From: a virus
Virus record (IMG/VR): IMGVR_UViG_3300037258_000368
Location: 1 to 64,000 of that record
Strand: one strand, 5' to 3'
DNA length: 64,000 nucleotides
This document shows, piece by piece, positions 1 through 61,711 of the stretch; within the stretch, counting starts at the first letter, position 1, and every line of letters starts with the position of its first letter. The translations under genes were made by a program, and so were the position numbers. The notes beneath the pieces are model-generated. The model was not told where the DNA came from. It saw only the letters and a list, made by a program, of their open reading frames with translations, and did not search any database.

Positions 1-1261
1 TCTCGCCGGCGGCATCGCCAAGAGCAATATGTTCCACCGCTGACGTTTCAAAGGCAGCGTCGATCCCCAGAGCCACAATCGAACCAAATCCGGTAAACCC
101 CTGTGCTGCCCCCTCGCCAAACGCAACGATCGTGTTCGGCTCATCCAGCAGGATGAAGTCCGCCCCGTTGAGCGTTCCGGTAATTGTGTGGTTCGTCACA
201 TCGTCCTCGACAATGGTCGTGTCGACGACATTCGTGGTCGAGGCATCGAACATCGAGAGGTGATTCAAGGTGCCTGGGCCAACGCCACCGCCGCCGCCGC
301 AGCTTCCGTTCGCCGCCGCGGTAATCAGCCCTTTGCCGTTGGCGGTAATGTTGGCGCACGTGAAGCTCCCGATATCCGAGTTGACCGTCGCCAGAGTGGC
401 GACCTGCGACCCGGATCCAGGGCCAGCCGTCACGTCTCCTGTCAATTGGGTGATCCCGCTGGCCGTCGCCTGAAGCACTCCGGCCGGTGCGGTGATCGTC
501 ACATTATCGATCTTGTAGACCCCGAAAACGCTATCGGTCCCGACCGGGATAGCCGGAGCCGAATCCGATGTCATAAATGTCGGCGCGGTGCCGTTAACCG
601 CCGCAATACCGACCTGCGCTGTCGGGTTCGCGGAGGTTGGCGCCGCGCCTCCTGTGCATCCAGCGCCAGCGTCGGAAAGGCTGGCGCAATTCGGCCGGTT
701 GAACCCGGTGTCACTCAGGTAGGTATAGGCGGTTGCTGTGTTCGGCGCCGGCACCGCGCCCTTCACCGTCTCGGTAAAGACATTGATCCCGATCGTCCCG
801 GTACCGGTGAGCGGGCTGGGCGACACGACAATCGGCCCGATCCCCGTAATGCTGATAGCGCCGCCGCTGCCGCCACCGCACGGAAACAACACCCCATTGA
901 TGCGAAAATTGCAGGTCGGGTCCGGACCGCCGCCAATCCGGTCGACGGTGAACAGCACATTGCCGCTGCCGTCGAAACCTGAGCAGACCTGGCTATAGGC
1001 ATCGTCCGAATATCCGGTCCACTGGCAATTGCCGAGCCCGGAATTGACGATGCCGAGACCGCTCGGCAGTGTGCCGCGCAGCGCATTGTTCTGCGGCATG
1101 ATCCCGGGACCGGGCGATCCACCGGCGTCCATGATGCTGCCGTCAGCGATCCACATCGCCAGATGCTGTTTGCTGACGGCATCGAACTGCTGGACCGTGC
1201 CCTGCGCATGCGCCGCCATGCTGACGAAGAGGATCAGCAAGAACGCGAACCTCGCGATCAC
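1..1261 (-). CDS. Tail fibre-like protein with signal peptide (3' end outside window)
   Basis: The reading frame is open from a GTG start to the left edge, so about 420 N-terminal codons are visible. A strong ribosome site (GGGGGAAGAA) precedes the GTG, which overlaps the stop of the glycine-rich gene as GTGA. The protein begins MIARFAFLLILFVSMAAHAQ, a textbook Sec signal peptide with an AHA-Q cleavage site. The mature part is rich in Gly, Thr, Ser and Ala with spaced cysteines, as in phage fibre or collar proteins. Its last visible part (roughly residues 340-420) has the repetitive LGxxAA/FGxGA flavour of fibre shafts. It probably continues into the frame ending at 63718 on a circular map. 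Receptor binding is inferred from composition and position. Confidence 0.75.
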   Translation of the reverse strand, partial: MIARFAFLLILFVSMAAHAQGTVQQFDAVSKQHLAMWIADGSIMDAGGSPGPGIMPQNNALRGTLPSGLGIVNSGLGNCQWTGYSDDAYSQVCSGFDGSGNVLFTVDRIGGGPDPTCNFRINGVLFPCGGGSGGAISITGIGPIVVSPSPLTGTGTIGINVFTETVKGAVPAPNTATAYTYLSDTGFNRPNCASLSDAGAGCTGGAAPTSANPTAQVGIAAVNGTAPTFMTSDSAPAIPVGTDSVFGVYKIDNVTITAPAGVLQATASGITQLTGDVTAGPGSGSQVATLATVNSDIGSFTCANITANGKGLITAAANGSCGGGGGVGPGTLNHLSMFDASTTNVVDTTIVEDDVTNHTITGTLNGADFILLDEPNTIVAFGEGAAQGFTGFGSIVALGIDAAFETSAVEHIALGDAAGE

Positions 1262-2649
1262 TTCTTCCCCCATCGGGACGGATCGAAAAAGTCGCGGCGC
1301 GCGAGGATGGCATTTCGGCGGAACGCCGCCAACGCAGCCCCGCCGGCCGGGATGATCATCCCTCCCGGCATCACAAACGGCGCCCGGATCGGCATCGGTG
1401 GGGCCACCGTCGCCGATGGCGCCCACATTAATAAAATTATCGCACCCCCGCCCATGCCTTGGACAAAACTAACCGAGCCGCCCGCCGCCGCCTTCCCCAT
1501 TCCGCCGCCGCCGCCGCCGTAATTCCCCCCGTCACCACCTTGACAGGTGACCGTGCCAGATCCGGCGCCATATCGGCCACTACCACCACCCCCACCGCCT
1601 ATCCCGTGTGAAGCGTCAAAATCCGTACCGCTGCCGCCATTCCCACCGCGAGTGTAAACTCCCGGCGTCGTCATGTTGTCGCTACCCGCCCCGCCAGAAT
1701 TACCGGTCCCAGCCTGTCCGTTAGAAGTACCGCCAGAGCCACTCGATCCGTTCCCACCGTTCGTATGCGTCGTCTGGGTGCCGGAGGTCGTATCGCCACC
1801 CTGCGTCCCTCCATCAGCGCCACCGCCTCCTAGACCACCCTGTGCGGTCGTGTTCAGAACGTTCCCGCCGCGCGCGCCTACATTGTGCGGCCCTGCTGCA
1901 CCACCACCGCCCTGTCCACACTGCGGCTGCGAACCACCTGTTCCCGATCCCCCATTCCCACCGTTAAAACCGTGGACAAGCGTGAACGGGACAGGAGGTG
2001 TCCCATTAATAGACCAAGCGCCGAAAGTCCCGCCGGACCCTTGATTAAATCCCGTCGCAGTTCCATCCAATGCGAACCCTGCCTGATAGAAGTTAGAGGC
2101 GCCCGTCGAACTTTCCCATAAAGCAGAAGTTGATGCACTAAAATCAACCGTCCCCGTCACGGCGCCATTCGCCAGCTGCATAAACGACCCGCCGCCGCCG
2201 CCGTCGGCGCCGAACGCCGTAGATCCCTGCGCGCTTATGCCGGAGTTTCCGCCTTTCCCGACTAGATAAACCGTGTTGTTCGCTGGATTCCATGTGGCAT
2301 CAACCGTCCACGGAGACGAACTCCCGGAGGTCAGCGCTACGGAGGTCATCGAGAATGGGAACAGCCACAGCACAATATCCGGGATAGGCTCGTTCGGGTC
2401 CGGGCTCGACCAGACGATCGAACTCCAGTCCTTATAAAGCGGTCGCAATTCTTGGTCGTTCCACGGATCGGGCAGCCAGACGACCTTGCCGTGATCGACG
2501 CCGTATTTTGCTTTGAGGAAGCCGGTGACCCAACCGATCTGCTTCGAGGCGTTGTAGTCGGGCTTCGGCAGGCCGAACATATGCCAGTAGCTCGGCGCCT
2601 GCCCGATGTCGTTGAGAAGGACGATCTGCGTTCTAGGCGCGCGGATCAT
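1258..2649 (-). CDS. Glycine-rich tail fibre-like protein
   Basis: This 463-residue protein starts MIRAPRTQIVLLND, overlapping the preceding stop as ATGA. Residues 1-150 look globular and are rich in Trp and Pro. From about residue 150 to 420 it is strongly glycine-rich with GGNGGSG, GGGGG and GGDGG runs, like glycine-rich domains of phage fibre and appendage proteins. The C-terminus turns basic. There is no signal peptide, unlike both neighbours. It lies in a chain of translationally coupled structural genes, which favours a virion appendage. No enzymatic motif is visible. The ATG at 2649 is preferred over longer in-frame extensions because of the stop-start overlap. Confidence 0.8.
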   Translation of the reverse strand: MIRAPRTQIVLLNDIGQAPSYWHMFGLPKPDYNASKQIGWVTGFLKAKYGVDHGKVVWLPDPWNDQELRPLYKDWSSIVWSSPDPNEPIPDIVLWLFPFSMTSVALTSGSSSPWTVDATWNPANNTVYLVGKGGNSGISAQGSTAFGADGGGGGSFMQLANGAVTGTVDFSASTSALWESSTGASNFYQAGFALDGTATGFNQGSGGTFGAWSINGTPPVPFTLVHGFNGGNGGSGTGGSQPQCGQGGGGAAGPHNVGARGGNVLNTTAQGGLGGGGADGGTQGGDTTSGTQTTHTNGGNGSSGSGGTSNGQAGTGNSGGAGSDNMTTPGVYTRGGNGGSGTDFDASHGIGGGGGGSGRYGAGSGTVTCQGGDGGNYGGGGGGMGKAAAGGSVSFVQGMGGGAIILLMWAPSATVAPPMPIRAPFVMPGGMIIPAGGAALAAFRRNAILARRDFFDPSRWGKK

Positions 2650-3989
2650 GCGCCGTCGCCCAACAGCGTGAACGTAGCGGCCGATCCGGCGTTCGACTTC
2701 ACCGTGATCGAGATGATCGCGTATTGGCCGAAGGTCTTGGTGTAGCTGTGCGGGTTCGCGTTGAACACCGCGCTCGCCCCCGCCGCGATCGTGACCTGCC
2801 CCGATGCCGTCTCCTGCGACACGGCGATGTTGCACCCGGTCGGCAGGCTGTTCGGCACGGTGTACGTCGCTGCCGAGGCGCCGGTCGCCAGGATCATCGT
2901 CCCGCAATCGGTCGCCGCAAACGTGTAGGCGCTGCTGCCGGTCCCGCTCTGCGAGGTTACGGTGCCAAGCACCTCACCAAAGGTCTGCGCCCCCGAAAAG
3001 GTATTCGTGCCGTTCAGCAGCGGGATCGTCGCGCCGCTCGTGCCGACCGCTTTCCCGTTGAGGGTCGTGCATGTGACGTTGGGCGTCGAGAATGTGCAGT
3101 CGCCGCCCAACGTGATCCCGGTGAACGAATTTGAGCTGTTGATCTGTATCTGCCCCGATGAACCGCCCGGCTTTGCCTTTGAATTGAGCGCGGCCATCGA
3201 ACCGATCGGCGACAGATCGACCACGTAGGTGCCCCCGCCTCCGTTCGTCGAGAGCACCTGGCCGAACACCGCGACCGCGGTCGGCACCGTTGACCCTGCA
3301 TCGTGGCAGTCGCCGGCCGTGGTAGTCGAGACGATCACAAAATCGCCGGCCGTGGTCGCCCCGTCGAAAACGCACGAAGCCTGTCCGGATATAGCGACAG
3401 AGGCATTCCCCGTCGTCCCGCAACTCGTTCCCGTGACGCCGGAGACGCAGATGCCTATCACCGAGCTGGTATCCGTCGTAGCGGCTTTCTTAACCGTCGC
3501 CCCCGTCGTGTAGACCACGAGCTTGCCGGCGGCGGTCCCGGTCGCCCCCTCGTTGACCAGCGTCTCGATCAGCGAGCTGGTGTTGAGCGTCACAGCCCCA
3601 CTGCTCGTCGAGATTGGCGTGCCGTTGACCATGAATGTCCCGGAGATATTCACGTCTCCGGTAGACGCAGAGCCGGTCGGTGCCCCCGATGTCAAACTCG
3701 GGGCCGTCACCGCGCCACCCAAAGCTAAAGCCGCCGATCCGGCGCTCGTTGCAATGGCCTGCTGCGCAGCCGAGGTCGAGTTCGCCCCGTCCGTCGACAT
3801 GCCGGAACCCGCACTGCAGGGCGCCCCGGCATCGACCAGCTGGCCGAATAGCGTTCCTGCGGCAAGGCAATGCCCAGCGGTGACCGGCGGAATTTCCCAG
3901 AGTTGCGACGGCGGGAGCTGCGCGCGCGCCAAGCCGGCGCCGAATAAACCAAGCACGAGGACCGCGACGAATAGAGAGCGCGCGCGCAT
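2646..3989 (-). CDS. Exported fibre-like structural protein
   Basis: This 447-residue protein begins MRARSLFVAVLVLGLFGAG and continues LARAQ, a clear Sec signal peptide. The rest is Ala/Thr/Ser/Gly-rich beta-type sequence with cysteines at roughly even spacing (for example SCGTT, SCVF, DCTF, TCTT, DCGT), compatible with disulfides. The start overlaps the upstream stop as TGATG and the stop overlaps the next start as ATGA, so it belongs to the same late transcript. The repeated short beta segments fit a fibre or appendage. Why a virion protein should carry an export signal is unclear. The assignment as fibre is an inference. Confidence 0.75.
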   Translation of the reverse strand: MRARSLFVAVLVLGLFGAGLARAQLPPSQLWEIPPVTAGHCLAAGTLFGQLVDAGAPCSAGSGMSTDGANSTSAAQQAIATSAGSAALALGGAVTAPSLTSGAPTGSASTGDVNISGTFMVNGTPISTSSGAVTLNTSSLIETLVNEGATGTAAGKLVVYTTGATVKKAATTDTSSVIGICVSGVTGTSCGTTGNASVAISGQASCVFDGATTAGDFVIVSTTTAGDCHDAGSTVPTAVAVFGQVLSTNGGGGTYVVDLSPIGSMAALNSKAKPGGSSGQIQINSSNSFTGITLGGDCTFSTPNVTCTTLNGKAVGTSGATIPLLNGTNTFSGAQTFGEVLGTVTSQSGTGSSAYTFAATDCGTMILATGASAATYTVPNSLPTGCNIAVSQETASGQVTIAAGASAVFNANPHSYTKTFGQYAIISITVKSNAGSAATFTLLGDGA

Positions 3990-4654
3990 CACGGCGTGTC
4001 CTCCTGGATCTCGATCGTGATGTCGAAAACTGCGCCGGTCGGGAGCGCCGCTCCGTTCATGTTGAGATACACAAACTCCGCGATGCCGCGCAGCACCGCC
4101 GCATTGATATCCAGTTCCCACACGAGTGGGGTGACGCCGAGTCCGGTGCCGTCGGCGCTGAGACACACATGCCCCGCCGCACCAATGCCGCCCACTTGTG
4201 CCCCAAGGCTGTCGGGGTTGGCCGTGCCGATCGTGGAGACCACTGCGGCGGCCGCAGGGTAAGCCGTGTCGGTTGCGAACGCGGCAAGCGCGGTGCGCAC
4301 AAGGTTCGTCGTGTCGGCGGCCGAGCGGCGGATCAGCTGCACCGGCATGTTGCCGGCTGCGGTCGCGACGCCCGTCAGGATGATCCTGCGGATACGTAGG
4401 GTCTTTCCGGCCGCGCCCTGGATTTCGAGGATATCGGTCGGTGTCGCGACTGGCGTGTAGCCGAGGACAGCGTAGCGGTATGTCGGCTTTACGCCTTCGG
4501 CTTGCACCGGCAGCGCGACAAGGCCCGGCGCGAGCGGGAATTTGACGCCGTTTTCATCGGCGAGAACCACGGTCGCGGCTTGGTTCGGGCCGACCGCGTT
4601 GATGTCCATACCAATCGGATTGCCGTCCCGGTCGGTGATCGCAAGAGCGCCCAT
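3989..4654 (-). CDS. Hypothetical structural protein in tail module
   Basis: The 221-residue product starts MGALAITDRDGNPIG and is mostly predicted beta strand, rich in Ala and Val, with no signal peptide. It sits between exported fibre-like genes and is coupled by a TGATG overlap to the gene downstream. A segment around residues 80-110 (AAGKTLRIRRIIL) begins a likely beta-sandwich seen in small appendage proteins. I do not recognise the family. A structural role is inferred from position only. Confidence 0.7.
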   Translation of the reverse strand: MGALAITDRDGNPIGMDINAVGPNQAATVVLADENGVKFPLAPGLVALPVQAEGVKPTYRYAVLGYTPVATPTDILEIQGAAGKTLRIRRIILTGVATAAGNMPVQLIRRSAADTTNLVRTALAAFATDTAYPAAAAVVSTIGTANPDSLGAQVGGIGAAGHVCLSADGTGLGVTPLVWELDINAAVLRGIAEFVYLNMNGAALPTGAVFDITIEIQEDTP

Positions 4655-4670
4655 AGGTCAGGTTTCCCAA

Positions 4671-4835
4671 TCAGGAGGCGACGAGCGGCGATTGCGGGAC
4701 TCCGGTCAGGACGAGGAGACCCCAAGGCGTGAACTGGCTCGGCGTGTTGGCGACCAATCCGGGCAGGTTGATTTGCGGAAAGCCGAAGATCCCCGGCGAC
4801 AGTTGCGGGCTCGGCGTCAAGCGGCCGCGGTTCAA
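4671..4835 (-). CDS. Small hypothetical protein with TTG start
   Basis: A 54-codon frame uses a TTG start preceded by GAGGAG four bases upstream and overlapping the previous stop as TTGA. The peptide is proline-rich (LTPSPQLSPGIFGFPQINLP) and hydrophobic in its second half, without a clear membrane helix. The stop-start overlap and ribosome site argue for translation although the gene is short and begins with a rare start codon. Function is unknown; location suggests a minor virion or assembly component. Confidence 0.55.
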   Translation of the reverse strand: MNRGRLTPSPQLSPGIFGFPQINLPGLVANTPSQFTPWGLLVLTGVPQSPLVAS

Positions 4836-5191
4836 AGGCTCTCCTCGTCCGAAATCCGCTCGTGATGTGCGCCGACTTCGTGGTCGAAAAGGGCGACCCT
4901 GCTACCGGCCTTCAGGAGGAAGCCTTCATAGAGGCTATCGACGCGCGTCTTGTAGAAGCGCTTCTCACCATAATCGGCGGGATCGGCTGGCTTGGGCGGG
5001 GCGCCCGGCGCCGCTCCGGGCGAGGCGCCTGTCCCATCGGCCGGATTGCTGCCGGCGTTGATGCGCTCGATATGCGTCGCGGTATCGTACGGGTGCCGCG
5101 TCGGCGCCTCGACCGTCGTCGGGCGCCGGCTGCGCGCGTCCATTGACGTTGCCCGTTTCAGGTTTACCGAGTCTTCGATTTCAGCAGTCAT
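4832..5191 (-). CDS. Hypothetical protein, disordered N-terminal half
   Basis: The 119-residue protein starts MTAEIEDSVNLKRA, overlapping the upstream gene by 11 bases, with GAGG nine bases before the ATG. The first 70 residues are charged and Pro/Ala-rich, likely disordered. The last 45 residues (RFYKTRVDSLYEGFLLKAGS to VALFDHEVG) look folded and resemble short beta-type head or tail accessory proteins. A longer frame start at 5290 exists but lies inside the previous gene. No family recognised. Confidence 0.7.
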   Translation of the reverse strand: MTAEIEDSVNLKRATSMDARSRRPTTVEAPTRHPYDTATHIERINAGSNPADGTGASPGAAPGAPPKPADPADYGEKRFYKTRVDSLYEGFLLKAGSRVALFDHEVGAHHERISDEESL

Positions 5192-5477
5192 CGGCCATAT
5201 CCTCGATGGTCTCGATTTGCAATTCGACCCGGCAGGAGGGACCGCCCGGGCCGTCTCTTGTTTCGCGGTCGGTGACACGGCATCGCGCAACGATGTCGAG
5301 GCAATCGCCCCTCTCGCAGTCCGCGATATCCAGATGCAGCTTCGCGAGTTCGACGTGCGTCAGGCAGATGCGCAGGCCGTAAGGGAAATCCGGCTTGTCC
5401 GACATCTTGATCGGCTGCACCGCGTCGAATTTCTCCTCATCGTCGAGTTCCATCGACACGGGTTTGCTGAAGGCCAT
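5181..5477 (-). CDS. Small acidic hypothetical protein
   Basis: The 98-residue product starts MAFSKPVSMELDDEEKFDAV with GGAG eight bases upstream. It contains three cysteines in its second half (ICLTH, DCERGDC, ARCRV), and the end ETIEDMADDC overlaps the next start. Sequence such as FPYGLRICLTHVELAKLHLD suggests a compact alpha/beta fold. It may be a small tail or head accessory protein. I do not recognise it. Confidence 0.65.
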   Translation of the reverse strand: MAFSKPVSMELDDEEKFDAVQPIKMSDKPDFPYGLRICLTHVELAKLHLDIADCERGDCLDIVARCRVTDRETRDGPGGPSCRVELQIETIEDMADDC

Positions 5478-5499
5478 CGGCCGTCTCCACAAATGCGAA

Positions 5500-5519
5500 G
5501 GGCGCCCCGAAGGGCGCCC
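5500..5519 (-). terminator. GC-rich hairpin with TTCG loop
   Basis: On the minus strand GGGCGCCC, a TTCG tetraloop and GGGCGCCC form an 8-bp stem just downstream of the gene ending at 5526. Only short T-rich sequence follows, so it could be a weak terminator or an RNA-stabilising hairpin rather than a full intrinsic terminator. Confidence 0.45.
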
Positions 5520-5525
5520 CAATAA

Positions 5526-5957
5526 TCAGGCACCAGCGGCCATCGGTGCAGCAGCGGGAGCGCCGGCGGCGGGCATCGCCGGCACGGGTGCGGCGACAGG
5601 TGCGGGAGCGGGAGGACCGCCGGCAGCGGCGGCGGGCGCAGCGGCGGCGGCAGCGCCCTGCATCGCGGCCATCTCGGCCATGTGGCGCTGCTCCATGTTG
5701 CGGAGCTCCTCGCGCTGGCCGCCGTGCATGTCGCGGCGCGCGTCCTCGTGACGTTTCGCCGTGTTCGCACGCTCGGTGTGATGGCGCGCGATCATCTCCT
5801 TGCTGGGATCGGCGGCGGGCTTATCGCCTTCGGCCTTTGCCTCGGATTTCGATTCGGTGTGCTCTTCCTTGGACGAGCCCTCGGAACCTTCCTTTTTGTC
5901 GTCATACATCCCGCCATGGCGGGGCTTTTTGGTCTCGGGCTTTTTCTCTTCGGCCAT
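5526..5957 (-). CDS. Charged/alanine-rich protein with HGGMYD motif
   Basis: The 143-residue protein starts MAEEKKPETKKPRHGGMYDD. A GGGAG ribosome site lies eight bases before the ATG. Residues 20-60 are Lys/Glu/Ser-rich and residues 60-95 are likely helical coiled coil (RHEDARRDMHGGQREELR). The last 45 residues are almost only Ala, Pro and Gly. The HGGMYD segment recurs in three other virion-module proteins here. Composition suggests a flexible minor head or scaffold-like component. Exact role unknown. Confidence 0.7.
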   Translation of the reverse strand: MAEEKKPETKKPRHGGMYDDKKEGSEGSSKEEHTESKSEAKAEGDKPAADPSKEMIARHHTERANTAKRHEDARRDMHGGQREELRNMEQRHMAEMAAMQGAAAAAAPAAAAGGPPAPAPVAAPVPAMPAAGAPAAAPMAAGA

Positions 5958-6096
5958 TCGATTTGCTCCCTAGTAGAATTGCCGCGCGGCGGCAGCGATG
6001 ATGGATCAGCCGCTCATGCGGGTCGCGCTTTAGCGAGATAGAGCGTGCCGCGTCTCGGGGTGGGCCTAGCTGTCGCCGCAAAGGAGGATGAGAGGG

Positions 6097-6339
6097 ATGG
6101 GTGAAAAAAAGAGGCGAGTGCAACTCGGGCCAACCGGACAATTCCCCGGCGGAATGATCCGGCAGGATGATCAGGGTAGCATCAACATCGCTATTTCCGA
6201 TATGGACAGCCACGGCAACATCCATATCGATTTCGGCACGCCGGTCGCATGGGTTGCGCTTCCAGCGGAGCAGGCCATAAACCTTGCTCGGCTGCTCTTG
6301 CGCAAGGCTGGCGCGAAGAGTGTGGAGATCACGCTGTGA
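6097..6339 (+). CDS. Small hypothetical protein on opposite strand (cargo gene)
   Basis: The 80-residue product starts MGEKKRRVQLGPTGQFPGG. AGGAGG lies nine bases before the ATG at 6097, which favours this start over the ATG at 6088. The core (INIAISDMDSHGNIHIDFG) is beta-rich, and the C-terminal helix (AEQAINLARLLLRKAGAKSV) resembles short phage housekeeping proteins. It is plus strand inside a minus-strand late block and overlaps the next plus gene by one base (TGATG), so the two form a small independent unit. Function unknown. Confidence 0.75.
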   Translation: MGEKKRRVQLGPTGQFPGGMIRQDDQGSINIAISDMDSHGNIHIDFGTPVAWVALPAEQAINLARLLLRKAGAKSVEITL

Positions 6340-6569
6340 TGGATCAGCTTCGGCACGACAGCGCGGCCTCGATGGAGGTCCGTTTTCTCCTTACGTCAAA
6401 CGGCAGAGGCGGACAGCGGGAGATTACCCGTGCCGGATGGTACGTCGTGCGCACCTGCACCTGCCATAATGGCCACGCGATTACGGAGCCGTTCGATAAT
6501 CGTGAGCGCGCGGCCCAGGCGCTTGCGGTGCTCGACGATGACGCGCGGCGCTACGCGATCCGCTCGTAA
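6339..6569 (+). CDS. Small hypothetical protein, second gene of plus-strand pair
   Basis: The 76-residue protein starts MDQLRHDSAASMEVRFLL, coupled to the upstream stop by TGATG. It contains a CTCHNGH segment and a C-terminal helix (ERAAQALAVLDDDARRYAIR). It overlaps the 3' end of the convergent minus gene by about 19 bases. It is probably a cargo gene expressed apart from the late structural transcript. No family recognised. Confidence 0.7.
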   Translation: MDQLRHDSAASMEVRFLLTSNGRGGQREITRAGWYVVRTCTCHNGHAITEPFDNRERAAQALAVLDDDARRYAIRS

Positions 6570-6829
6570 CCGTCCTCGAACTGGCTGCGGGGCGAGATCG
6601 AGCGGTAGCCATCCGGTTTGTAGATCACGAGATAGTCGTCCACGACGGGCATATAGCGGCGCACTACGTCGTGATCGACCGTGATCGGTCCGAAATCCTC
6701 AAAGAGGAGCATCGCGCTACCATCGGCCTGCGGCGCGACGCCGGCAATCTTCAGCGCCCAGACCTCTTTGTGCGAGCGATAGCGCGGCGGTTCCGCTTCC
6801 TTGCCATCCGAGGTCGGAAATAGCGGCAT
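6551..6829 (-). CDS. Hypothetical protein
   Basis: The 92-residue protein starts MPLFPTSDGKEAEPPRYRSH, with the ATG overlapping the upstream stop as TGATG. The sequence KEVWALKIAGVAP, then a conserved-looking stretch near FGPITVDHDVVRRYMPVVDDY, suggests a small alpha/beta domain. Phages often carry proteins of this style near capsid genes, but I cannot name the family. The longer in-frame region upstream is a shadow of neighbouring genes. Confidence 0.7.
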   Translation of the reverse strand: MPLFPTSDGKEAEPPRYRSHKEVWALKIAGVAPQADGSAMLLFEDFGPITVDHDVVRRYMPVVDDYLVIYKPDGYRSISPRSQFEDGYERIA

Positions 6830-7077
6830 CAGTCGTACATCCCCCCGTGGCGCTTCTTGCCTGCGGCCATCGCATTGAGAGCGAAATTGGCTTCCTTGCC
6901 GAGTGTGCCGCCGGCGTGTTTTTTCTGCGCGGCGTACTCGCGCGTCGTCTCGCCGGCGGCCGTCGCCTTTGCGGCAAACCGGCCCGGGTGCTCGGCTGCG
7001 CCAGCTTTGATCCAGCCCTTTGACTTTGCCATGCCGGTGCTCCGCGATGCGAGATCGGCGAGGGTGGCGCTCGCCAT
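6829..7077 (-). CDS. Small basic KGWIK-type phage protein ending HGGMYD
   Basis: The frame encodes 82 residues from the ATG at 7077, which overlaps the preceding stop as TGATG. An internal ATG at 7032 (MAKSKGWIKAG) has a good GGAG site and gives 67 residues. The sequence GWIKAGAAEHPGRFAAKATA resembles a widespread small phage protein type with a KGWI..AI.HPGAL signature, which favours the shorter start. The protein is basic, Ala/Lys/Gly-rich and ends KKRHGGMYD, sharing its tail with the next gene. Function unknown; a virion or DNA-condensing role is possible. Confidence 0.7.
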   Translation of the reverse strand: MASATLADLASRSTGMAKSKGWIKAGAAEHPGRFAAKATAAGETTREYAAQKKHAGGTLGKEANFALNAMAAGKKRHGGMYD

Positions 7078-7262
7078 CAGTCGTAGAAGCCGCCGTGCTT
7101 CTTGCGCACCGGCTTACCGTCCTTGACGGTCGCCGGCAATTTGCCACCCGGATCGGCGCCCGCGAACTCTTTGCCTACAGCTTGGCTCACGCCGCCGACA
7201 CCGCCCTTCTTGGCGGCGGCGGCGAACATAAGCCTGCGCTGCGCTTCCGAAACTGCGGGCAT
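7077..7262 (-). CDS. Small DUF3008-like protein ending HGGFYD
   Basis: The 61-residue protein starts MPAVSEAQRRLMFAAAAKKG, which matches the start of the DUF3008 type of small phage proteins (MPAxSxAQRRLM). It ends PVRKKHGGFYD. The stop overlaps the next start and the ATG abuts the upstream stop. It is basic and likely helical at the N-terminus. The shared C-terminus with the neighbouring gene suggests both bind the same virion partner. No biochemical function is known to me. Confidence 0.75.
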   Translation of the reverse strand: MPAVSEAQRRLMFAAAAKKGGVGGVSQAVGKEFAGADPGGKLPATVKDGKPVRKKHGGFYD

Positions 7263-8576
7263 TTACAGTTCGGCCGACGCCTGGATATTCGCGCCGCCGC
7301 CGGCGCCAACCAATTCGCAGGCAAAACCGGCCGTGGTCGAGGCGGTCGTGCCTTGAAGCGCGATCGTATCGACGGTATTGCCGATCACCGCGTCCTGGAT
7401 CAGATAGGTCGAGGCGAGTGCAACCGGGGTCGTTGTTTTCGACATCACGGCCCAGGTGCCGACACCTTCGGCCGTGCCGCCGATCGTGATCGTTGGTGCG
7501 ACACGCATCGACACCGGCAACTTGATCGCGACATCGCAAATCGTGGCGGTCTCATAGGCGCCGCCCTGGCTGACGATCTTCGAGGCCGCGGGCTCGTTGA
7601 TCTGGTAATAATAGCGCTGCTGCAATACCTGCTCTTGCGCAGTGAGCCGTCGCGCGAAGGCTTTGGCGGAAGGCGCCTGCTGGGCGTTGAGCAGCGTCGC
7701 GGTGCCGAGGGTCGTGCCGGCAACCGTGGTCAGAGCCGAATTGCGCACAAGCTGGCAGCCGGCCATCTTGAAGCCATCCGTCGCCGTGCCGGTACCGACC
7801 GGCGTGAAGCCGATCGCGGCGGCTACCTCGGTAGCGCCCGTGGGAATCGGCGCAACGATCGAATAGCGGCCCCAGCTCGTGGTGATCGGGACAAGGACGC
7901 TCGCATTGATCTGCCCGGCCCAGGCCGTGGTGCCGGCGCCGCCGTGCGCATTGAGGCCGTAGGCGTAATCGGTCGATCCCTCATCGGTGCCGGTGCCATA
8001 GCTGATCGTCATCAGAACCTGGCTGCTGGCGGCCGAGAAGCCGCTGAGCGCCTTCAGATGGCAATCGAACTCGGCGGTCTGTCCCTGGAATTGCAGGGAA
8101 TTGTCGCTCTCAACCTCCTGTGCGATCGTCACCGGCACGACACCGGTCAGCGATCCCTTGACGATTTGCAGCGAGTCGAGATAGCCGGCCGGCGCATCGG
8201 CCTGCTGGGTGATCGTCGCCGGCGTCGAGGTGCCTCCCCAAGCGAACCAGCGATCGGCTGTGTAGCCGACATAATAGGTCGCGCTGGCGAGCGCGACCGA
8301 GACGCCACGTTGCCACAAATTCTGCCCGGTCGAGAAGTCACCGCCGATGAGAGCGTTCTCGGGGTTGTTGCCCGGCTGGGTCTGCGGGTAGTTGCCGAAG
8401 AGAGTAGCGGGCATCCACTGGTCGCCGACCGCGGGATTGCCGCCCGGTACGATCTTGACGAGATCGTTCGGCCCGATCGATTGGACCCGCGGGGGCGGAT
8501 AGGATTGGGCCAGAGCAGCAGCGACGGCGCCAGCCAAGAGCGCGGCGGCCGCGAGGCCGACGGGGATTTTCTTCAT
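7263..8576 (-). CDS. Exported receptor-binding/tail fibre-like protein
   Basis: The 437-residue protein begins MKKIPVGLAAAALLAGAVAA then ALAQS, a Sec signal peptide. Residues 75-130 (ALIGGDFSTGQNLWQRGVS, later YTADRWFAW) match the N.l.nGdf..WQRG...y.ADRW pattern common in phage fibres and collar proteins, where it forms a carbohydrate-binding-like beta sandwich. The C-terminal 100 residues contain the YYYQINEP segment typical of such domains. GGAG precedes the ATG. Receptor recognition is the likely role; the signal peptide is unusual for a virion protein. Confidence 0.8.
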   Translation of the reverse strand: MKKIPVGLAAAALLAGAVAAALAQSYPPPRVQSIGPNDLVKIVPGGNPAVGDQWMPATLFGNYPQTQPGNNPENALIGGDFSTGQNLWQRGVSVALASATYYVGYTADRWFAWGGTSTPATITQQADAPAGYLDSLQIVKGSLTGVVPVTIAQEVESDNSLQFQGQTAEFDCHLKALSGFSAASSQVLMTISYGTGTDEGSTDYAYGLNAHGGAGTTAWAGQINASVLVPITTSWGRYSIVAPIPTGATEVAAAIGFTPVGTGTATDGFKMAGCQLVRNSALTTVAGTTLGTATLLNAQQAPSAKAFARRLTAQEQVLQQRYYYQINEPAASKIVSQGGAYETATICDVAIKLPVSMRVAPTITIGGTAEGVGTWAVMSKTTTPVALASTYLIQDAVIGNTVDTIALQGTTASTTAGFACELVGAGGGANIQASAEL

Positions 8577-8590
8577 GTGGAAAACTCCAA

Positions 8591-8636
8591 GGGGGACAAG
8601 GGGACATGAGGGGGACAGGGGGGTACATGTCCCCCC
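8591..8636. other. G-quadruplex-like and inverted-repeat leader
   Basis: The plus strand has four G runs of 5, 4, 5 and 6 bases (8591-8595, 8600-8603, 8610-8614, 8618-8623) separated by 3-6 bases. The last run can also pair with CCCCCC at 8631-8636 across a TACATGT loop. It lies in the 78-base leader of the exported fibre gene starting at 8576. The motif fits an intramolecular G4 on the template strand or a hairpin in RNA. Confidence 0.5.
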
Positions 8637-8654
8637 ATTGTCCGGACAGCGGGG

Positions 8655-9158
8655 CTAGTAGTGCAAGCGGCAGTAGACCCGGATATTCGCCGTGGCTGCC
8701 GCACCCTGTCCTGTCGTCAGCGAGAAGTAGATCGTGCGCAGGTCGAATTTCGCGGTCGTGTTGTTGAGGGTCGCAGACAACACGCTGCCAGCGGCATTGG
8801 TGGCCGCAGCGGTCAGGCCCGAGTAGGCCTGGCTGCTTGCCACGATCGCCGTTCCGGCTTTTGCGGGCGCCGGATAAAAACCGCCTGCCGCGGTGGTCAG
8901 CGAGACGCTCGGCGAGGTGATGACGATGGCGTCGATCTCATAAGTCGCGCTTGGGAAAGAGATCGGGATTGGCTGGTCGGCCGTCGAATTCATATCCGCG
9001 CCGCGCAAGGTCCCGCATTGGATGCGAGATGGCGCGTAGCCGCCCCATGGCGCCGTCGGGAATTGCATCTGCGTCTGCGCGCGCGCGCCGCCGCTCAAGC
9101 CGCCGACGAGCGCCAAAATTGCGACACCCGCGAGGGCGCGCCTCAGAAGATTTCGCAT
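8655..9158 (-). CDS. Exported small structural-like protein
   Basis: The 167-residue protein starts MRNLLRRALAGVAILALVGG and continues to ARAQ, a clear Sec signal peptide. AAAGG precedes the ATG at 9158. The mature part is a beta-rich Ala/Thr domain with a cysteine near the start (IQCGTL) and one near the end (VYCRLHY), which could form one disulfide. It lies between a fibre-like gene and other appendage genes. A virion appendage or secreted coat is inferred; no family recognised. Confidence 0.75.
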   Translation of the reverse strand: MRNLLRRALAGVAILALVGGLSGGARAQTQMQFPTAPWGGYAPSRIQCGTLRGADMNSTADQPIPISFPSATYEIDAIVITSPSVSLTTAAGGFYPAPAKAGTAIVASSQAYSGLTAAATNAAGSVLSATLNNTTAKFDLRTIYFSLTTGQGAAATANIRVYCRLHY

Positions 9159-9189: not shown

Positions 9190-9618
9190 TCAGCTGACGG
9201 CCACCGACAGCGACATTGCCGCCTGCCCGTTCCCGGAAAAGCGCCAATTGACAGTCCCGACTGACAAATCGGTGAAATTGAGGCGGTAGAGGACGCCCTT
9301 TTCGCACTCGCCGGTGGTGAGCGAGACATCGGTGCCCGTTGCCCATACCGCCTGCTGGCCCCCGCCGCCGACGTTGCAGACAATCCAGGTCGTGCCTCCG
9401 TCGAAACTGCGTTCGAGCCGCCCGCTGCCGGTCCAGGCGCCGTTCGGGCCGCCGCTGCCGAAGATGACCAGGTTGAAGACGCCGAAAATCTCGACGCCGG
9501 CGGTATGTCCTGGGGCGGTAAATGGCGCGTTTCCGGCCTGCGCCGACGAAAAGACAAAGTTCGCCTTGTCGCTTGCCGGCGGCGTCGGAATGACGGGCGG
9601 CGTCGCGGGGATGCCCAT
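9190..9618 (-). CDS. Hypothetical tail appendage protein
   Basis: The 142-residue product starts MGIPATPPVIPTPPASDKAN and has no signal peptide. The core looks like a single beta-sandwich: FNLVIFGSGG, then ERSFDGGTTWIVCNVGG, then VLYRLNFTDLS. The sequence type RSFDGGTTW resembles small phage fibre-tip or accessory proteins that bind repeated units. Its start overlaps the previous stop. Function not demonstrated. Confidence 0.7.
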   Translation of the reverse strand: MGIPATPPVIPTPPASDKANFVFSSAQAGNAPFTAPGHTAGVEIFGVFNLVIFGSGGPNGAWTGSGRLERSFDGGTTWIVCNVGGGGQQAVWATGTDVSLTTGECEKGVLYRLNFTDLSVGTVNWRFSGNGQAAMSLSVAVS

Positions 9619-10037
9619 CAGTCTGCCGGGTTCTCGGCCGCCGCTGCGGCGCCCTGCTCGACGTCCGTCGGCGCGGGCGTTTCACGTGAAACGACACCGG
9701 TGTCGCCCTCGCCGATGCGGGCGACGAGCGCCAGCATCTCGGCCTCCTCGGCTTCGGTGCGGTGCTCATTCTCGCGCAATGCAAGGAGGCGTTGCTCCTC
9801 GGCGGCGTCCAAAGCTGGTTGGGCCGGCGGATCAAGCGGGGTGGCCGGGTCGACCTCAACCTCGACCTGCTTCATCGTCGGCCCGACCTGGTGCGGAAGG
9901 AGATGCACGATCTCGCCCGCTCGACGGAAGATGCCACCGATAAAGCTCTTCTCGGTCAGCACGTAGGGCTGCGGGACCTCTTCGGGTGCCGCCGGCGGCT
10001 GCCCGCGGTCCTGTTTGCCTCGCGAATCGTCGGACAT
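9618..10037 (-). CDS. Hypothetical acidic protein, likely head/tail accessory
   Basis: The 139-residue protein starts MSDDSRGKQDRGQPPAAPEE, with GAGG nine bases upstream of the ATG. An N-terminal folded part (TEKSFIGGIFRRAGEIVHLL) is followed by an acidic, probably helical segment (ALDAAEEQRLLALRENEHRT) and a Pro/Ala tail. It is coupled downstream by TGATG. Short proteins of this style near capsid genes often act in head maturation, but no specific family is evident. Confidence 0.65.
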   Translation of the reverse strand: MSDDSRGKQDRGQPPAAPEEVPQPYVLTEKSFIGGIFRRAGEIVHLLPHQVGPTMKQVEVEVDPATPLDPPAQPALDAAEEQRLLALRENEHRTEAEEAEMLALVARIGEGDTGVVSRETPAPTDVEQGAAAAAENPAD

Positions 10038-10089
10038 GAGTGGTTCCTCTCTAAAATTCACCTGAACCCCCCATTCAGGTGCAGCGGTG

Positions 10090-10917
10090 TTATCCGTTAT
10101 AGGTAGTGGGGCGCGCCGGATCGGCGATCGTGCCAAGGATGTGAATCGGCTTCTGCAGCGCGTCGACCGGGTAGAGTTCGCCCAATTCGATCGCGCCGTG
10201 GCTGCCCGCACCCTGCCCCGCACCGGTCTCGGGCCTGTTACCATCCTTGCCGATGACTTCGAAGCCGGCGACGAGCGGATCCTTTGCCGCCGGGGTGACC
10301 GAGGCGCCGATCGACTCGCAGAAGAGGCGATAGACCTCGCGGGCCATCTCGTTCTCCGGCCGCATCGCCTGGTTCGGGACGCCCGGCCATTTGACCCGGC
10401 GCGAGCGCTCGACATGATCGTTGGCGACCCAGGTCGGCTTGATCCACGTCTCGCTAAGATAGACCGCGGCCGTGAGGTGATATTCGGGGACGATGCCCCG
10501 TGCGCGCGCATTGAGCAGCAGTTCGACCATGCGTTCGCGGGCGCGCAGGCGCATCGCCAGAACGGCAGGCGCGACCGTGCGCTTGGCGCCGGGTCTACCC
10601 TGGTCGATCAGTTCGTTGATCGAAAGCGCGAGACTTTCGACGAAAGCGCGATCACCGCTGGGGTTCGGGATCTGCGCCGCCGGCTCGCCGCGCTCGTCGG
10701 CGAGTTTGGCGAGCATCGCGGCGACGGCTGCACCAGCTGCAGCGGAGGCTGCGGCGGCGATTGCCGCCTTGACCTCGGGTCGCTCCATGAGATTCGAGAG
10801 ATCGAGCGCCGGCGGTTCATCGAATTGGGCGGCAGCGACGGTTGCACCGCCAGCCAGGAGTGCGGCCTCACGCTCGGCCAATTCGGCCGCAGCACGTTCG
10901 GGGGTATTGCTTCGCAT
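10090..10917 (-). CDS. Hypothetical structural protein
   Basis: The 275-residue protein starts MRSNTPERAAAELAEREAAL. Residues 1-90 are alanine-rich and helical. A more conserved-looking region follows, with MRLRARERMVELLLNARARG, a Trp-rich YLSETWIKPTWVANDHVERS patch, and a C-terminal domain (GELYPVDALQKPIHILGTIA). It lies just downstream of the cement gene and may be a head or head-tail component. The start is chosen as the first ATG; its ribosome site is weak. I do not recognise the family. Confidence 0.7.
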   Translation of the reverse strand: MRSNTPERAAAELAEREAALLAGGATVAAAQFDEPPALDLSNLMERPEVKAAIAAAASAAAGAAVAAMLAKLADERGEPAAQIPNPSGDRAFVESLALSINELIDQGRPGAKRTVAPAVLAMRLRARERMVELLLNARARGIVPEYHLTAAVYLSETWIKPTWVANDHVERSRRVKWPGVPNQAMRPENEMAREVYRLFCESIGASVTPAAKDPLVAGFEVIGKDGNRPETGAGQGAGSHGAIELGELYPVDALQKPIHILGTIADPARPTTYNG

Positions 10918-10974
10918 TGAAATACTCGAGCGGTTGTGTCAGAAAAATTCCGGCGCCATTGGGCTGCGTGACAC

Positions 10975-11005
10975 GGGGCCGCGGCGTGGGGTGCGTCGCG
11001 GCCCC
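10975..11005 (-). terminator. Hairpin after cement protein gene
   Basis: GGGGCCGCG (10975-10983) and CGCGGCCCC (10997-11005) form a perfect 9-bp stem with a 13-base loop, immediately after the cement gene stop on the minus strand. A short T run appears only about 25 bases later, so termination may be partial or factor-assisted. Confidence 0.4.
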
Positions 11006-11017
11006 AGATCGGCCGGA

Positions 11018-11578
11018 CTAGCTCACGCTGTAATTGCGCTGTGCGTTCTTGATGCTCAGATCGTCGCGATCGAGGGTCACCAGCGCGTAGGCGATCGTGC
11101 CGGCCGAGAGATTGGTGCCGGCTGGGACCTGCATCAGGAGCCGCGCATAACGCGGGCGCAGCGTCGACGGGAATGCCGGTGGCCAGTCGAACCGCGCGAT
11201 GATGGCGTTGGCAGGGGCCAGCGCGACAGCCTGCGCCCCGGTCTCTTCGGCGGTGTACCAAGTGTCCGGCTGATAATTGCCCGCCGCGCCCAGATCGGCC
11301 GCGAGCTGGAACGCCAAGTTCCACGTCGCCGCATTGCCGGTGGCAAATGCCGTACCGACCGTGACGGCGAGCAACGGCTTCCTGACGCCGATGCCGAAAT
11401 CCGTTCCGAAGGTGGGAAAGCTGGTGCCGAAGATAATGGGCGGCGCTTCGCCGACGCCGGCGCCCAGAAGGTCGAGAGCGACGCCGCCAGGAGCGAGAAC
11501 GATGGGGGCGCCCGCGGCGCCGACCATCGAGAGATTTCCCCCGATCGGCACGAAATTGAGAAGTGCGTCCGTGTACAT
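11018..11578 (-). CDS. Bbp16-family capsid cement protein
   Basis: The 186-residue product starts MYTDALLNFVPIGGNLSMVG and matches the Bbp16 capsid cement type of Bordetella phage BPP-1. The visible pattern is TDALLNFVP..., GTDFGIGVRKPLL, VGTAFATG, LRPRYARLLMQVPAGT and a C-terminal strand with TIAYALVTLDRDD. In BPP-1 this protein decorates and stabilises the capsid lattice on the outer surface. Its place directly after the major capsid gene agrees. A terminator-like hairpin separates it from the capsid gene, which could tune stoichiometry. Confidence 0.88.
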   Translation of the reverse strand: MYTDALLNFVPIGGNLSMVGAAGAPIVLAPGGVALDLLGAGVGEAPPIIFGTSFPTFGTDFGIGVRKPLLAVTVGTAFATGNAATWNLAFQLAADLGAAGNYQPDTWYTAEETGAQAVALAPANAIIARFDWPPAFPSTLRPRYARLLMQVPAGTNLSAGTIAYALVTLDRDDLSIKNAQRNYSVS

Positions 11579-11596
11579 GGGCGGGTTCCTTTACGA

Positions 11597-11623
11597 AAAG
11601 AAAAAGCCGCCCGGAGGCGGCTC
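11597..11623 (-). terminator. Intrinsic terminator after major capsid gene
   Basis: On the minus strand GCCGCC, a short CGGA-type loop and GGCGGC form a 6-bp GC stem followed directly by TTTTTCTTTT. It lies between the capsid gene (ending 11685) and the cement gene (starting 11578), so it probably reduces read-through and makes capsid message most abundant. Confidence 0.75.
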
Positions 11624-11664
11624 TTTCATTGATTGCGGGGGCGCGATGCGACGGCGCCGCGGAC

Positions 11665-11691
11665 CTTTAGGTGCTTTAGGTGCTTTAGGTG
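11665..11691. repeat. Three tandem 9-bp repeats at the capsid gene stop
   Basis: CTTTAGGTG occurs three times without gaps, at 11665, 11674 and 11683. The last unit contains the capsid gene stop codon. Period 9 keeps the reading frame, so slippage would not shift phase. A second triple 9-bp repeat with the same AGGT core lies at 18929-18955. Confidence 0.8.
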
Positions 11692-12728
11692 ACCTGGCCT
11701 TCCGTGGTGAGCAGCTGGTCGCTGATGCCGACCTTGATGCCGCGGATGAAGTCGGTCACCCGACCCGCCGCGTCGGTCAGCGACAGCAGCACGTTGCGGT
11801 CGCGCATTCCCTGCACGTCGCACCAATGCCGCCCGGTGCGGCTCATGTACCAGACCGGCCGGATACCGGGCGCGGGCTCATCGGGCGCGTCGGTCTCGGT
11901 GATGCCGCTGGCTTCGCGGCTGAGCGTCGGCGGAAAGAGGACCGCCTCGGCGAAGAGCGCGAACAAATCCGCCGCATTCGGTCCGGCGAGGCCGGCGGCG
12001 GTCACATCGAGGTTTGCGATGCGCACGCCATAGCGCCAATCCTCGACGACGATTCCGGCTTCCTGGCGGAAATAGCTGGTGAGCGCGCGGAACGGATTGC
12101 CGAGCGCATCGAAGGCGGGCCATGTGTCGCCGAGGTTTTCCTGATTGAGGCCGGCTTTCGAGTTGCGCGGGAACAATCCCTTGATCGTCATATCGCCCCA
12201 GCAGATGAGCCAAGCGCTGAGGTTCGAGGAACCGGTGCCGCCGCCGTTGATGACGTTGGAACCGTTGGCGGCCGAGTTGCTGTCGGTGTTGTAGAACGGC
12301 GACAAGCCCATGAATTCGCCGGGCGTCGCGACCGTATTGCCATACCAGAGCGTGTTGCAGACCGTCTGCCCCATGCCCTCGATGAAGGATACATCCTCGC
12401 GATATCGGAAATTCTCGATATCGCCCGAGCGCTCGGCCAGCGTGCGATCGACCTGGCTCCAGCCGACGAGTTCGCCCAAACCAACGCGGGATTTGGCGGT
12501 CGTCGATTTGCCGAACGCGGTTCCGGCATTGATCTGGCGCCATGCACCTGCCGGGATCGAGGTACGATAGACGAATTCGTGCCCCGTCATTTCCGAGGCT
12601 TCCGCCCACGGCATGTCCTTCAGCGGGTCGTTGGTTTGGGACATCAGCTCCGCGATGCGGCGCTGTTTACCCATGGCATCGGTGCGGCTCGTCAGGTCGA
12701 GAAGGGTGGGCCATTGTCCGTTCGCCAT
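11685..12728 (-). CDS. Major capsid protein
   Basis: The 347-residue protein starts MANGQWPTLLDLTSRTDAMG with GGAGG six bases before the ATG. The sequence has the pattern of the major capsid protein of BPP-1-like podoviruses (HK97-type fold, GP7-type family). Visible landmarks are LLDLTSRTDAMG, IAELMSQTNDPLKDMPW, the VYRTSIPAGAWRQINAGTAF region and a central FMGLSPFYN loop. It lies between scaffold and cement genes, the expected order. Its long leader contains a large inverted repeat and the gene is followed by a terminator. Confidence 0.9.
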   Translation of the reverse strand: MANGQWPTLLDLTSRTDAMGKQRRIAELMSQTNDPLKDMPWAEASEMTGHEFVYRTSIPAGAWRQINAGTAFGKSTTAKSRVGLGELVGWSQVDRTLAERSGDIENFRYREDVSFIEGMGQTVCNTLWYGNTVATPGEFMGLSPFYNTDSNSAANGSNVINGGGTGSSNLSAWLICWGDMTIKGLFPRNSKAGLNQENLGDTWPAFDALGNPFRALTSYFRQEAGIVVEDWRYGVRIANLDVTAAGLAGPNAADLFALFAEAVLFPPTLSREASGITETDAPDEPAPGIRPVWYMSRTGRHWCDVQGMRDRNVLLSLTDAAGRVTDFIRGIKVGISDQLLTTEGQVT

Positions 12729-12791
12729 TTTCTGCCTCCATAAAGACCGCCGCTCGCACAAGCGAGGTGAGCGGCGTTGTTGTTTTCTGGA

Positions 12792-15554: not shown

Positions 15555-16318
15555 CTGTCGCCGCCGATCCAGCGCGACGGCACGAAGGGACGCTCCTCCG
15601 GCGGCAGCGGCTGCGCGGGCAGCGGTACGAGCGGGCCGTCAGGGTCGGCGCCCAGCGCAGCGACGGGCGCATCGATGGACGCGCGATGCTGCAGGCTCTC
15701 GATCACACGCCATTTTCTGAGCGCCTCCTGATAGCGGAACAGGCGCGCCTGTCGCGACGGGTTCCCCACCATTAGGTAGCGCTCCGGGACCATAAAGGCT
15801 TCGTTGATCTTGCGATCCACCTCGGCCAGCATTTCGGCTGTGACCGGTGGTGCCGGCTCAGGCGGCGCCATGATCATGAGCATCGCTTCGACCAGCTCCT
15901 CGATGATCCCGACCAGCATCATCTTTATCAGTTTTCCGCTCGCGTCCAGCGCATCACGACGTGCGGCGATGGGATAGCACAATGCACAGTTCGGGTCGCC
16001 GCAGCTTATCGTCTTGCTCTCGTATGTCGGCAAAGCCGCCGTGAATATCGTTGAGCAGACACAGCGCGCGATTCCCGATGCCGGGCGCTGTATCGAGGCG
16101 CCACATTTCGGGCAAGTCATCGTCTCTCCGCGCGCCTTGGCGAGAATGGCGCGCGCCGCGAGCCAGTCTTCGCTAAAATCCCCTGGGTTTTCTTCCATTT
16201 GAGCATCCTGCTCCGGCGAAATGAGCCGAGCCAATGCCTCGTAAAGCTCCGGTGCCGCCGCGATCAGCGTGCTGGTGCTGGGCGCTCTCGCTACAGTTCT
16301 CGTCTTGCTCTCGTTCAT
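15551..16318 (-). CDS. Hypothetical protein with zinc-ribbon-like segment
   Basis: The 255-residue protein starts MNESKTRTVARAPSTSTLIA, overlapping the portal stop as ATGA. Residues 20-65 match a short phage module (LIAAAPELYEALARLIS then WLAARAILAKARGE). A CPKCGASIQR segment and later CGDPNCALCYP suggest two metal-binding knuckles. Residues 120-200 are helical (LIKMMLVGIIEELVEAMLMI). It could be two fused small domains. Function unknown. Confidence 0.65.
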   Translation of the reverse strand: MNESKTRTVARAPSTSTLIAAAPELYEALARLISPEQDAQMEENPGDFSEDWLAARAILAKARGETMTCPKCGASIQRPASGIARCVCSTIFTAALPTYESKTISCGDPNCALCYPIAARRDALDASGKLIKMMLVGIIEELVEAMLMIMAPPEPAPPVTAEMLAEVDRKINEAFMVPERYLMVGNPSRQARLFRYQEALRKWRVIESLQHRASIDAPVAALGADPDGPLVPLPAQPLPPEERPFVPSRWIGGDR

Positions 16319-33412: not shown

Positions 33413-33825
33413 ACGGCCGGATGAGTGCCGTTCTCGGCGGCATCGTCCTGGTCGGCGCCTTTGTCGCTCTCGCGGTGCCCGAACCGCACGCCGGCGACGC
33501 GCGCATCGCCTCAACCAGCGAGATCGAGGTTTGCGCCACCGATGGTCTGCCGGGCAGCAGCTACAGCCGCGCCCACCGTGTCGTGCGCCGCCGCGGGGTG
33601 GCGGGACACGAGATCGATCATATCGTGCCGCTCTGCCTCGGCGGGGCCGATGTCGACGCCAATATCCAAGTCGAGCCGATCGATGAAGCGCTGCGGAAGG
33701 ATGCGCTTGAACGCGAGGCCTGCATCCGGGTCTGCCGCTACCACACCCTTTCCCTGATCGAGGCGCAGTCGTGGTTCATCGGGAATTGGACTGTTGCGTA
33801 TCGGCGCGAAATCGAAGGCCGCTAG
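33409..33825 (+). CDS. HNH endonuclease with N-terminal membrane segment
   Basis: The 138-residue protein starts MNGRMSAVLGGIVLVGAFVA, one hydrophobic segment that may act as signal or anchor. The HNH motif is clear: HEIDHIVPLCLGGADVDANI (about residues 68-87). Four cysteines surround it (EVCATDG, LCLGG, EACIRVC). HNH enzymes cut DNA with a metal ion. An exported or anchored HNH could act at the cell boundary. The last 10 bases overlap the first tRNA. Confidence 0.8.
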   Translation: MNGRMSAVLGGIVLVGAFVALAVPEPHAGDARIASTSEIEVCATDGLPGSSYSRAHRVVRRRGVAGHEIDHIVPLCLGGADVDANIQVEPIDEALRKDALEREACIRVCRYHTLSLIEAQSWFIGNWTVAYRREIEGR

Positions 33826-33892
33826 CTCATCCTGGTAGAGCGCCGGCCTTTGAAGCCGGAGGCACGAGGTTCGAGTCCTCGGCGGCCTGCCA
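33816..33892 (+). tRNA. tRNA-Gln (anticodon TTG)
   Basis: A full cloverleaf is visible: acceptor AGGCCGC/GCGGCCT, D stem GCTC/GAGC, anticodon stem CCGGC/GCCGG with loop CTTTGAA (anticodon TTG), T arm CGAGG/CCTCG with TTCGAGT loop, and encoded CCA. It begins inside the last codons of the HNH gene. Confidence 0.92.
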
Positions 33893-33894
33893 AA

Positions 33895-33968
33895 GCCGGG
33901 TTCGTTCAACGGTAGGATGCCGCGTTCTGAGCGCGGTGATCGAGGTTCGATTCCTCGCCCCGGTGCCA
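33895..33968 (+). tRNA. tRNA-Gln (anticodon CTG)
   Basis: A second cloverleaf follows after two bases. The anticodon stem is CCGCG/CGCGG with loop TTCTGAG (anticodon CTG), and the T arm CGAGG/CCTCG and CCA are encoded. The acceptor stem has a G-T pair and one mismatch at its base, so folding is a little weaker than for its neighbour. Both tRNAs would read glutamine codons. Confidence 0.85.
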
Positions 33969-61697: not shown

Positions 61698-61711
61698 CGG
61701 AATTTCCTTTC

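Follow-up and report, generated by a model that had tools for sequence, protein, structure and literature searches.

The window analysed in this work is a stretch of 64,000 nucleotides (positions 1 to 64,000) of the IMG/VR virus record IMGVR_UViG_3300037258_000368. The subject is a cassette of genes in this window, several of which encode candidate tail fibres or spikes that begin with a signal peptide (SP). The whole record has 66,286 bp and the window covers most of it. Both record ends share a 127-bp direct repeat, so the record is circular with a length of 66,159 bp. The gene set of the window is that of a tailed, podovirus-like phage with terminase, portal, major head, internal virion, and tail proteins, a DarB-like giant protein, and an endolysin-family gene. 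The cassette crosses the record start and is bordered on one side by the head genes (9618 and below) and on the other by the phrog_394 tail genes (62940 and below). It lies inside the late structural operon, with overlapping reading frames and beside tail genes, which is the setting of a tail fibre or spike gene. The genes of the cassette and its surroundings are listed below, where lengths are in amino acids (aa), a slash denotes the predicted cleavage site, and genes are named in the text by their start positions.

1 to 1261, continuing across the circular junction to record position 65717, minus strand: putative fibre gene with SP, GTG start at 1261, 567 aa in total, 12 mature cysteines
1258 to 2649, minus strand: 463-aa glycine-rich fibre/adhesin-like protein without SP, overlapping the start of the 1261 gene
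2646 to 3989, minus strand: 447-aa SP protein (...GLARA/QLPP), 10 mature cysteines
3989 to 4654, minus strand: 221-aa appendage-type protein without SP, conserved in relative L014
5181 to 5522, minus strand: 113-aa protein, phrog_825 / Gp10-like (PF21628) match below cutoff
7263 to 8576, minus strand: 437-aa SP protein (...VAAALA/QSYP), 4 mature cysteines, tail-fibre-like family
8655 to 9158, minus strand: 167-aa SP protein (...GGARA/QTQM), 2 mature cysteines
9190 to 9618, minus strand: 142-aa appendage-type protein without SP, conserved in relatives
11685 to 12761, minus strand: major head protein, phrog_212 (PHROG match), upstream of the cassette
16315 to 18156, minus strand: portal / head-tail adaptor of the epsilon15 type, phrog_332 (PHROG match)
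60556 to 62940, minus strand: three phrog_394 tail genes (60556-61464, 61712-62353, and 62350-62940), the downstream cassette border
62974 to 63564, plus strand: 196-aa SP protein (...SPVPA/QTLR) next to the cassette and in the opposite orientation
Record 63718 to 65409, minus strand: 563-aa paralogue of the 1261 gene with SP (...QVAQA/QGVV), its C-terminal end at window 63718 to 64000
Record 65406 to 65726, minus strand: 106-aa SP gene beyond the junction

An earlier note on this DNA, made from the sequence alone, had proposed signal peptides ending in AxA before a glutamine at 1261, 3989, 8576, and 9158. All four are confirmed on the minus strand as Sec/signal peptidase I (SPase I) type. The spaced cysteines that it had noticed in at least three of these genes are present in all four, and the neighbouring genes 4654, 9618, and 2649 are without a signal as it had stated, which makes the presence of signals selective. 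The cassette that it had placed at 1-9158 does exist; those limits cut it, since two further SP genes lie past the record start.

The 1261 protein consists of the signal MIARFAFLLILFVSMAAHA, with predicted cleavage before a glutamine (...MAAHA/QGTV), followed by a conserved N-terminal module (N-module) and a tip with YadA-head-like repeats recognised by eye. The 3989 gene has an AGGAGG ribosome site and its start overlaps the stop of the preceding gene. The 196-aa protein has one cysteine in its signal and two in its mature part. The SP-bearing fibre-like protein of locus L031 has a glycine-rich tip that resembles the 1258-2649 protein.

Conserved signals and paired cysteines

The signal peptides were called by a hand-made rule-based scorer, not by SignalP. 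Of the 13 cassette genes, 6 scored a signal, compared with 1 of the 46 genes called elsewhere (one-sided Fisher test, p = 2.4e-4, with gene calling of our own). Antisense open reading frames (ORFs) in the guanine- and cytosine-rich (GC-rich) DNA of the window also score, so the scorer is unspecific by itself and the weight was put on conservation and on cysteine parity.

The relatives that were found by their portal have SP fibre-like genes at the same place. The N-module, which is the domain behind the cleavage site, was used as the search query, and both search patterns for viral contigs left out the signal region. The scan of viral contigs confirmed 13 N-module loci (two on the source contigs of the query itself), and all 13 exhibit a signal directly before the module. 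The scan of genome contigs gave one locus, in a prophage of Rhizobium sp. BK313, whose protein start is identical to that of viral locus L020. This prophage (L032) has its fibre-like gene at 9956-12259 and a small SP gene at 8249-8740. Among 297 genomes from the order to which this Rhizobium host belongs, one contained the N-module, and it is the BK313 genome already known. With the window counted in, the resulting comparison set consists of 18 proteins on 16 contigs.

The signal is kept before the N-module in all 18 proteins, where its form is conserved and its sequence is not shared. Position -3 of the cleavage site is A, V, or T in 18/18, position -1 is A in 15, G in two, and P in one, and position +1 is Q in 18/18. 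These N-termini have the positively charged n-region, the hydrophobic h-region, and the small residues at -3 and -1 of Sec/SPase I signals, as judged by rule and with the one proline at -1 among the 18. The A5 family of small proteins shows the same trait: among its 17 loci, 14 score a signal, two that the scorer missed (L042 and L043) have a signal by eye, and one (L052) is cut by the contig edge.

The cysteines are the strongest line of evidence for real export, as far as sequence can tell. Two cysteines stand at fixed positions, 14-16 residues apart, in 18/18 N-modules. A second pair (CW...DCG, about 12 apart) is complete in six and entirely absent in the other 12. The number of mature cysteines is even in 16/16 complete N-module fibre-like proteins, and in 18/18 when the two that are cut at a contig end (L027 and L028) are included. 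The tips of the 16 complete proteins are mostly unrelated by blastp, and any extra cysteine sits in the signal. In the available part of one published study (PMC7678975), exported DsbA substrates are recognised by an even cysteine number, and the SP proteins exhibit this property of oxidatively folded exported proteins.

Signal-less proteins do not exhibit the same parity. A hand-picked set gave even numbers in 22/22 SP proteins with cysteines versus 22/61 signal-less structural proteins (92 proteins in total, of which 31 lack cysteine), and the cysteine content was 1.58% versus 0.62%. An automated set, which covers most fetched viral loci after truncated ORFs and, in GC-rich contigs, frames whose third codon positions are poor in GC had been dropped, gave 45 even and 4 odd SP proteins versus 111 and 131 others after de-duplication at 60% identity (p = 4.7e-10), and 34 and 4 versus 76 and 89 at 40% (p = 4.9e-7); these p-values are optimistic because the proteins are related. 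Among the odd SP rows, L022 7426-7686 is truly odd and L074 5023-5250 is a low-complexity frame that is probably spurious. The other two (L028 3532-5433 and L050 8068-9603) become even if cleavage occurs before the next glutamine, a post hoc reading that is outside the p-value.

Two families that have members with and without a signal show a similar pattern, with loci that are partly duplicates or on contigs already used. The 9158 family (9 loci) has five SP members with two mature cysteines each and four SP-less members with none, three of which are nearly identical in sequence. The 8576 family (17 loci) has 15 SP members, all even with up to 8 cysteines, and two SP-less members with 2 and 3. 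The signal-less tail fibre gp28 of the cultured phage HMO-2011, a relative of the 8576 protein, has no cysteines at residue positions 347 and 420; the SP-bearing L030 protein has both.

Functional export and oxidative folding of the SP proteins are thus well supported by sequence comparison. The earlier note had offered two branches, a secreted system outside the virion or an exported assembly step. Selective export with disulfides, which is common to both, is supported by the conservation, the cysteine parity, and its controls, and the choice between them leans towards the exported assembly step because the genes lie in a late structural operon, relatives carry fibre or spike domains, and one related contig has, by inspection, no other fibre candidate.

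Candidate roles of the exported proteins

The fibre character of these proteins is suggested by their relatives. An S74 chaperone and pectate-lyase-like tips are hallmarks of phage fibres. The protein of L015, which has the same N-module, carries an S74 endosialidase chaperone and a phrog_7121 tail fibre match. Pectate-lyase-like domains are found on N-module relatives above the Pfam cutoff in L054 and below it in L014 and L032, and the protein of L028, also with the same N-module, has a GDSL esterase tip. The 65.8-kb contig G005 has two SP proteins of 1100 and 1255 aa that are the only fibre candidates in its ORF list, as judged by eye and with the completeness of the contig uncertain. The structure model of an A5 protein (predicted local distance difference test score, pLDDT, of 79) has as its best solved match the capsid spike of Pseudomonas phage Pa223, which is only suggestive (E 6.4e-4, template modelling score 0.46). 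The same model also matches many predicted phage proteins, some of which are named fibre or depolymerase.

We consider the chances evenly balanced that the SP proteins are virion tail fibres or spikes that are exported through Sec, disulfide-bonded in the periplasm, and docked on the virions at lysis. The fibres or spikes would be made late in a tailed, podovirus-like phage, pass through the Sec translocon, and be cut by signal peptidase I just before the conserved glutamine. They would then fold in the periplasm with intrachain disulfides. Docking is probably the task of the N-module, which directly follows the cleavage site, while the C-terminal tip, which varies, probably binds a receptor or cuts a polysaccharide. 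The fibres would join the virions at or after lysis; attachment is placed at lysis because particles with heads and tails are put together in the cytoplasm and would otherwise stay separate from periplasmic fibres. This docking step is conjectural.

Several points weigh against this proposal. The SP proteins of the window itself matched no Pfam family and no fibre-type PHROG, and the sole match of the 8576 protein is phrog_28838, of unknown function. The structure model of the N-module is weak (pLDDT 61) and gave no fold match at E <= 0.001. The signal-less glycine-rich 1258-2649 protein could be the real adhesin of the window phage, although the phage may carry both kinds of fibre. The membership of the SP proteins in the virion is a step that we infer, and no tailed phage is known to dock periplasmic fibres. 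Two cultured phages that are relatives by portal or internal virion protein also argue in this direction. Caulobacter phage Jess A has 55 genes, none with a signal, and in Rhizobium phage RHph_TM29 a signal is present in 3 of 32 scanned genes, none of which is a tail gene. SP fibres as a general property of such relatives are rejected by these two phages.

The main rival explanation, to which we give a smaller but appreciable probability, is that the SP proteins are exported non-virion proteins. They would be secreted at a late stage or during lysogeny and would work either free or at the cell surface, as decoys, as adhesins, as blockers of superinfection, or as enzymes that degrade polysaccharides. 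Signals and disulfides suit any exported protein, exported non-virion phage proteins such as lambda Lom and T4 Spackle are known, and a GDSL esterase tip as in L028 would work free too. However, the genes have a conserved position within the late structural operon and their reading frames overlap, relatives carry the S74 chaperone and pectate-lyase-like tips, and the fibre candidates found in G005 by inspection are the two SP proteins only.

A dual fate, where a cytoplasmic pool from failed export or internal starts joins the virions and the exported pool serves as a secreted lectin or enzyme, appears improbable. It would reconcile fibre anatomy with export and is compatible with the sequence, but the even cysteine counts, and a cysteine pair that is gained or lost as a unit, indicate that oxidised folding of the entire protein is under selection. 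Assembly or release through the envelope without ordinary lysis, with the tail completed in the periplasm, is very unlikely. Filamentous phages regularly export their virion proteins, whereas this phage has an ordinary terminase, portal, internal virion proteins, and an endolysin-family gene, and no secretin-like family was among the matches of the family scans made. The idea that the N-termini do not work as signals, being hydrophobic anchors or remnants of host genes that were taken up through recombination, draws on the use of a hand-made scorer and on its antisense hits and is just as hard to sustain, given that signal form is kept without sequence in 18/18, that cysteines are paired, and that SP-less 9158 homologues have no cysteines; vestigial or chance signal peptides are rejected on conservation and parity.

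Related phages and known systems

The distribution of SP fibre-like genes extends beyond phages with the portal of the window. In locus L065 a terminase and a phrog_156 portal are immediately preceded by SP proteins whose mature parts have 4, 26, and 6 cysteines; one of these SP proteins has a match to tail fibre phrog_4492. Locus L076 has several SP proteins before the terminase, one of which matches tail protein phrog_5939. Four SP genes of L076 (4683-9274) lie directly before the terminase and all have even cysteine numbers. The trait therefore appears, by sequence, to be common to at least two unrelated lineages, with phrog_332 and phrog_156 portals.

Cultured phages gave no match for the window proteins 1261, 3989, 4654, and 9158, an N-module, the A5-type protein of L041, or the 8576-type protein of L065. 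The 8576 protein matched three records of cultured phages, one of which is a RefSeq copy, and the two examined have signal-less fibres. Direct relatives among cultured phages are rejected on these searches. The homologues of gp063 of Caulobacter phage Circe are loosely annotated as tail fibres, and nothing on exported fibres was found in the accessible text on it.

The 113-aa phrog_825 protein (5181 to 5522) is conserved in relatives, where it is sited between two SP genes. Several small charged cassette proteins (window 5181-7262) have a common short end motif, e.g. HGGMYD, HGGFYD, KLYD, or SLYD, which recurs between two SP genes in L014, L016, L050, and L063 and may be a binding tag. Three other features of the window were observed. 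The DarB-like protein (42266-51205, minus strand) has 2979 aa with helicase-type and methyltransferase-type matches. Two neighbouring glutamine tRNA genes (33816-33968, plus strand) have anticodons TTG and CTG. A possible lipoprotein (36219-36587, minus strand) near the endolysin-family gene has an N-terminus with a lipobox-like LLGAC within a longer frame.

Tailed-phage assembly is taught as wholly cytoplasmic, and the known podovirus fibres are made and attached in the cytoplasm. Podovirus tail fibres and tailspikes resemble the SP fibre-like proteins in having a conserved N-terminal part and exchangeable tips, with S74, pectate-lyase-like, and GDSL domains and phrog_7121 and phrog_4492 matches in relatives, and differ from them in that only the latter combine a signal with even, conserved cysteines. 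The coat proteins of filamentous phages are virion proteins with cleaved signals that are inserted in the membrane and assembled during extrusion. Both groups bear signals, but the window phage has terminase, portal, head, and tail genes and is not an inovirus.

Other exported phage proteins have been described in the available parts of the following sources. T4 Spackle (gp61.3) is a periplasmic 97-aa lysozyme inhibitor with a cleaved signal and a cysteine pair (PMC7650644); it is similar to the SP proteins in phage-coded export, cleaved signal, and cysteine pair, but it is no fibre. Lambda Lom is an exported protein whose gene lies between the tail spike and fibre genes (PMC12309495). Lom and the SP proteins are both exported, but Lom is an outer-membrane beta-barrel that is expressed in lysogeny and has no fibre modules. 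No outer-membrane beta-barrel family was matched by the SP proteins of the window in general Pfam and PHROG scans, which included no barrel-directed test. The Bcep22-like podovirus JC1 has about 61 kb, 3-4 tail fibre genes, and a DarB-like protein; the available part of its description mentions no signal for the fibres, and the virion proteins listed there exclude the fibres gp56, gp57, and gp59 (PMC9144972). No description of Sec-exported tail fibres was found in the literature searched, which is weak evidence of novelty as subscription journals and preprints were mostly outside the search.

The findings in this work stand about an equal chance of reflecting, or not, a widespread undescribed class of tailed phages from at least two unrelated structural lineages, where receptor-binding fibres mature outside the cytoplasm. 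Such fibres would leave through Sec, be stabilised by periplasmic disulfides, and wait until lysis to dock on virions by means of a conserved domain that signal cleavage exposes. The prophage in the sequenced Rhizobium sp. BK313 makes the idea of exported fibres testable. If it is true, exported and disulfide-stabilised fibres would be a new assembly route and would explain the very stable extracellular fibres of some phages. Free fibres around a bursting cell would have consequences for phage competition, superinfection, and fibre swapping. The combination of a signal peptide with cysteine parity would also offer a simple way of recognising such phages in the genomes of uncultured viruses.

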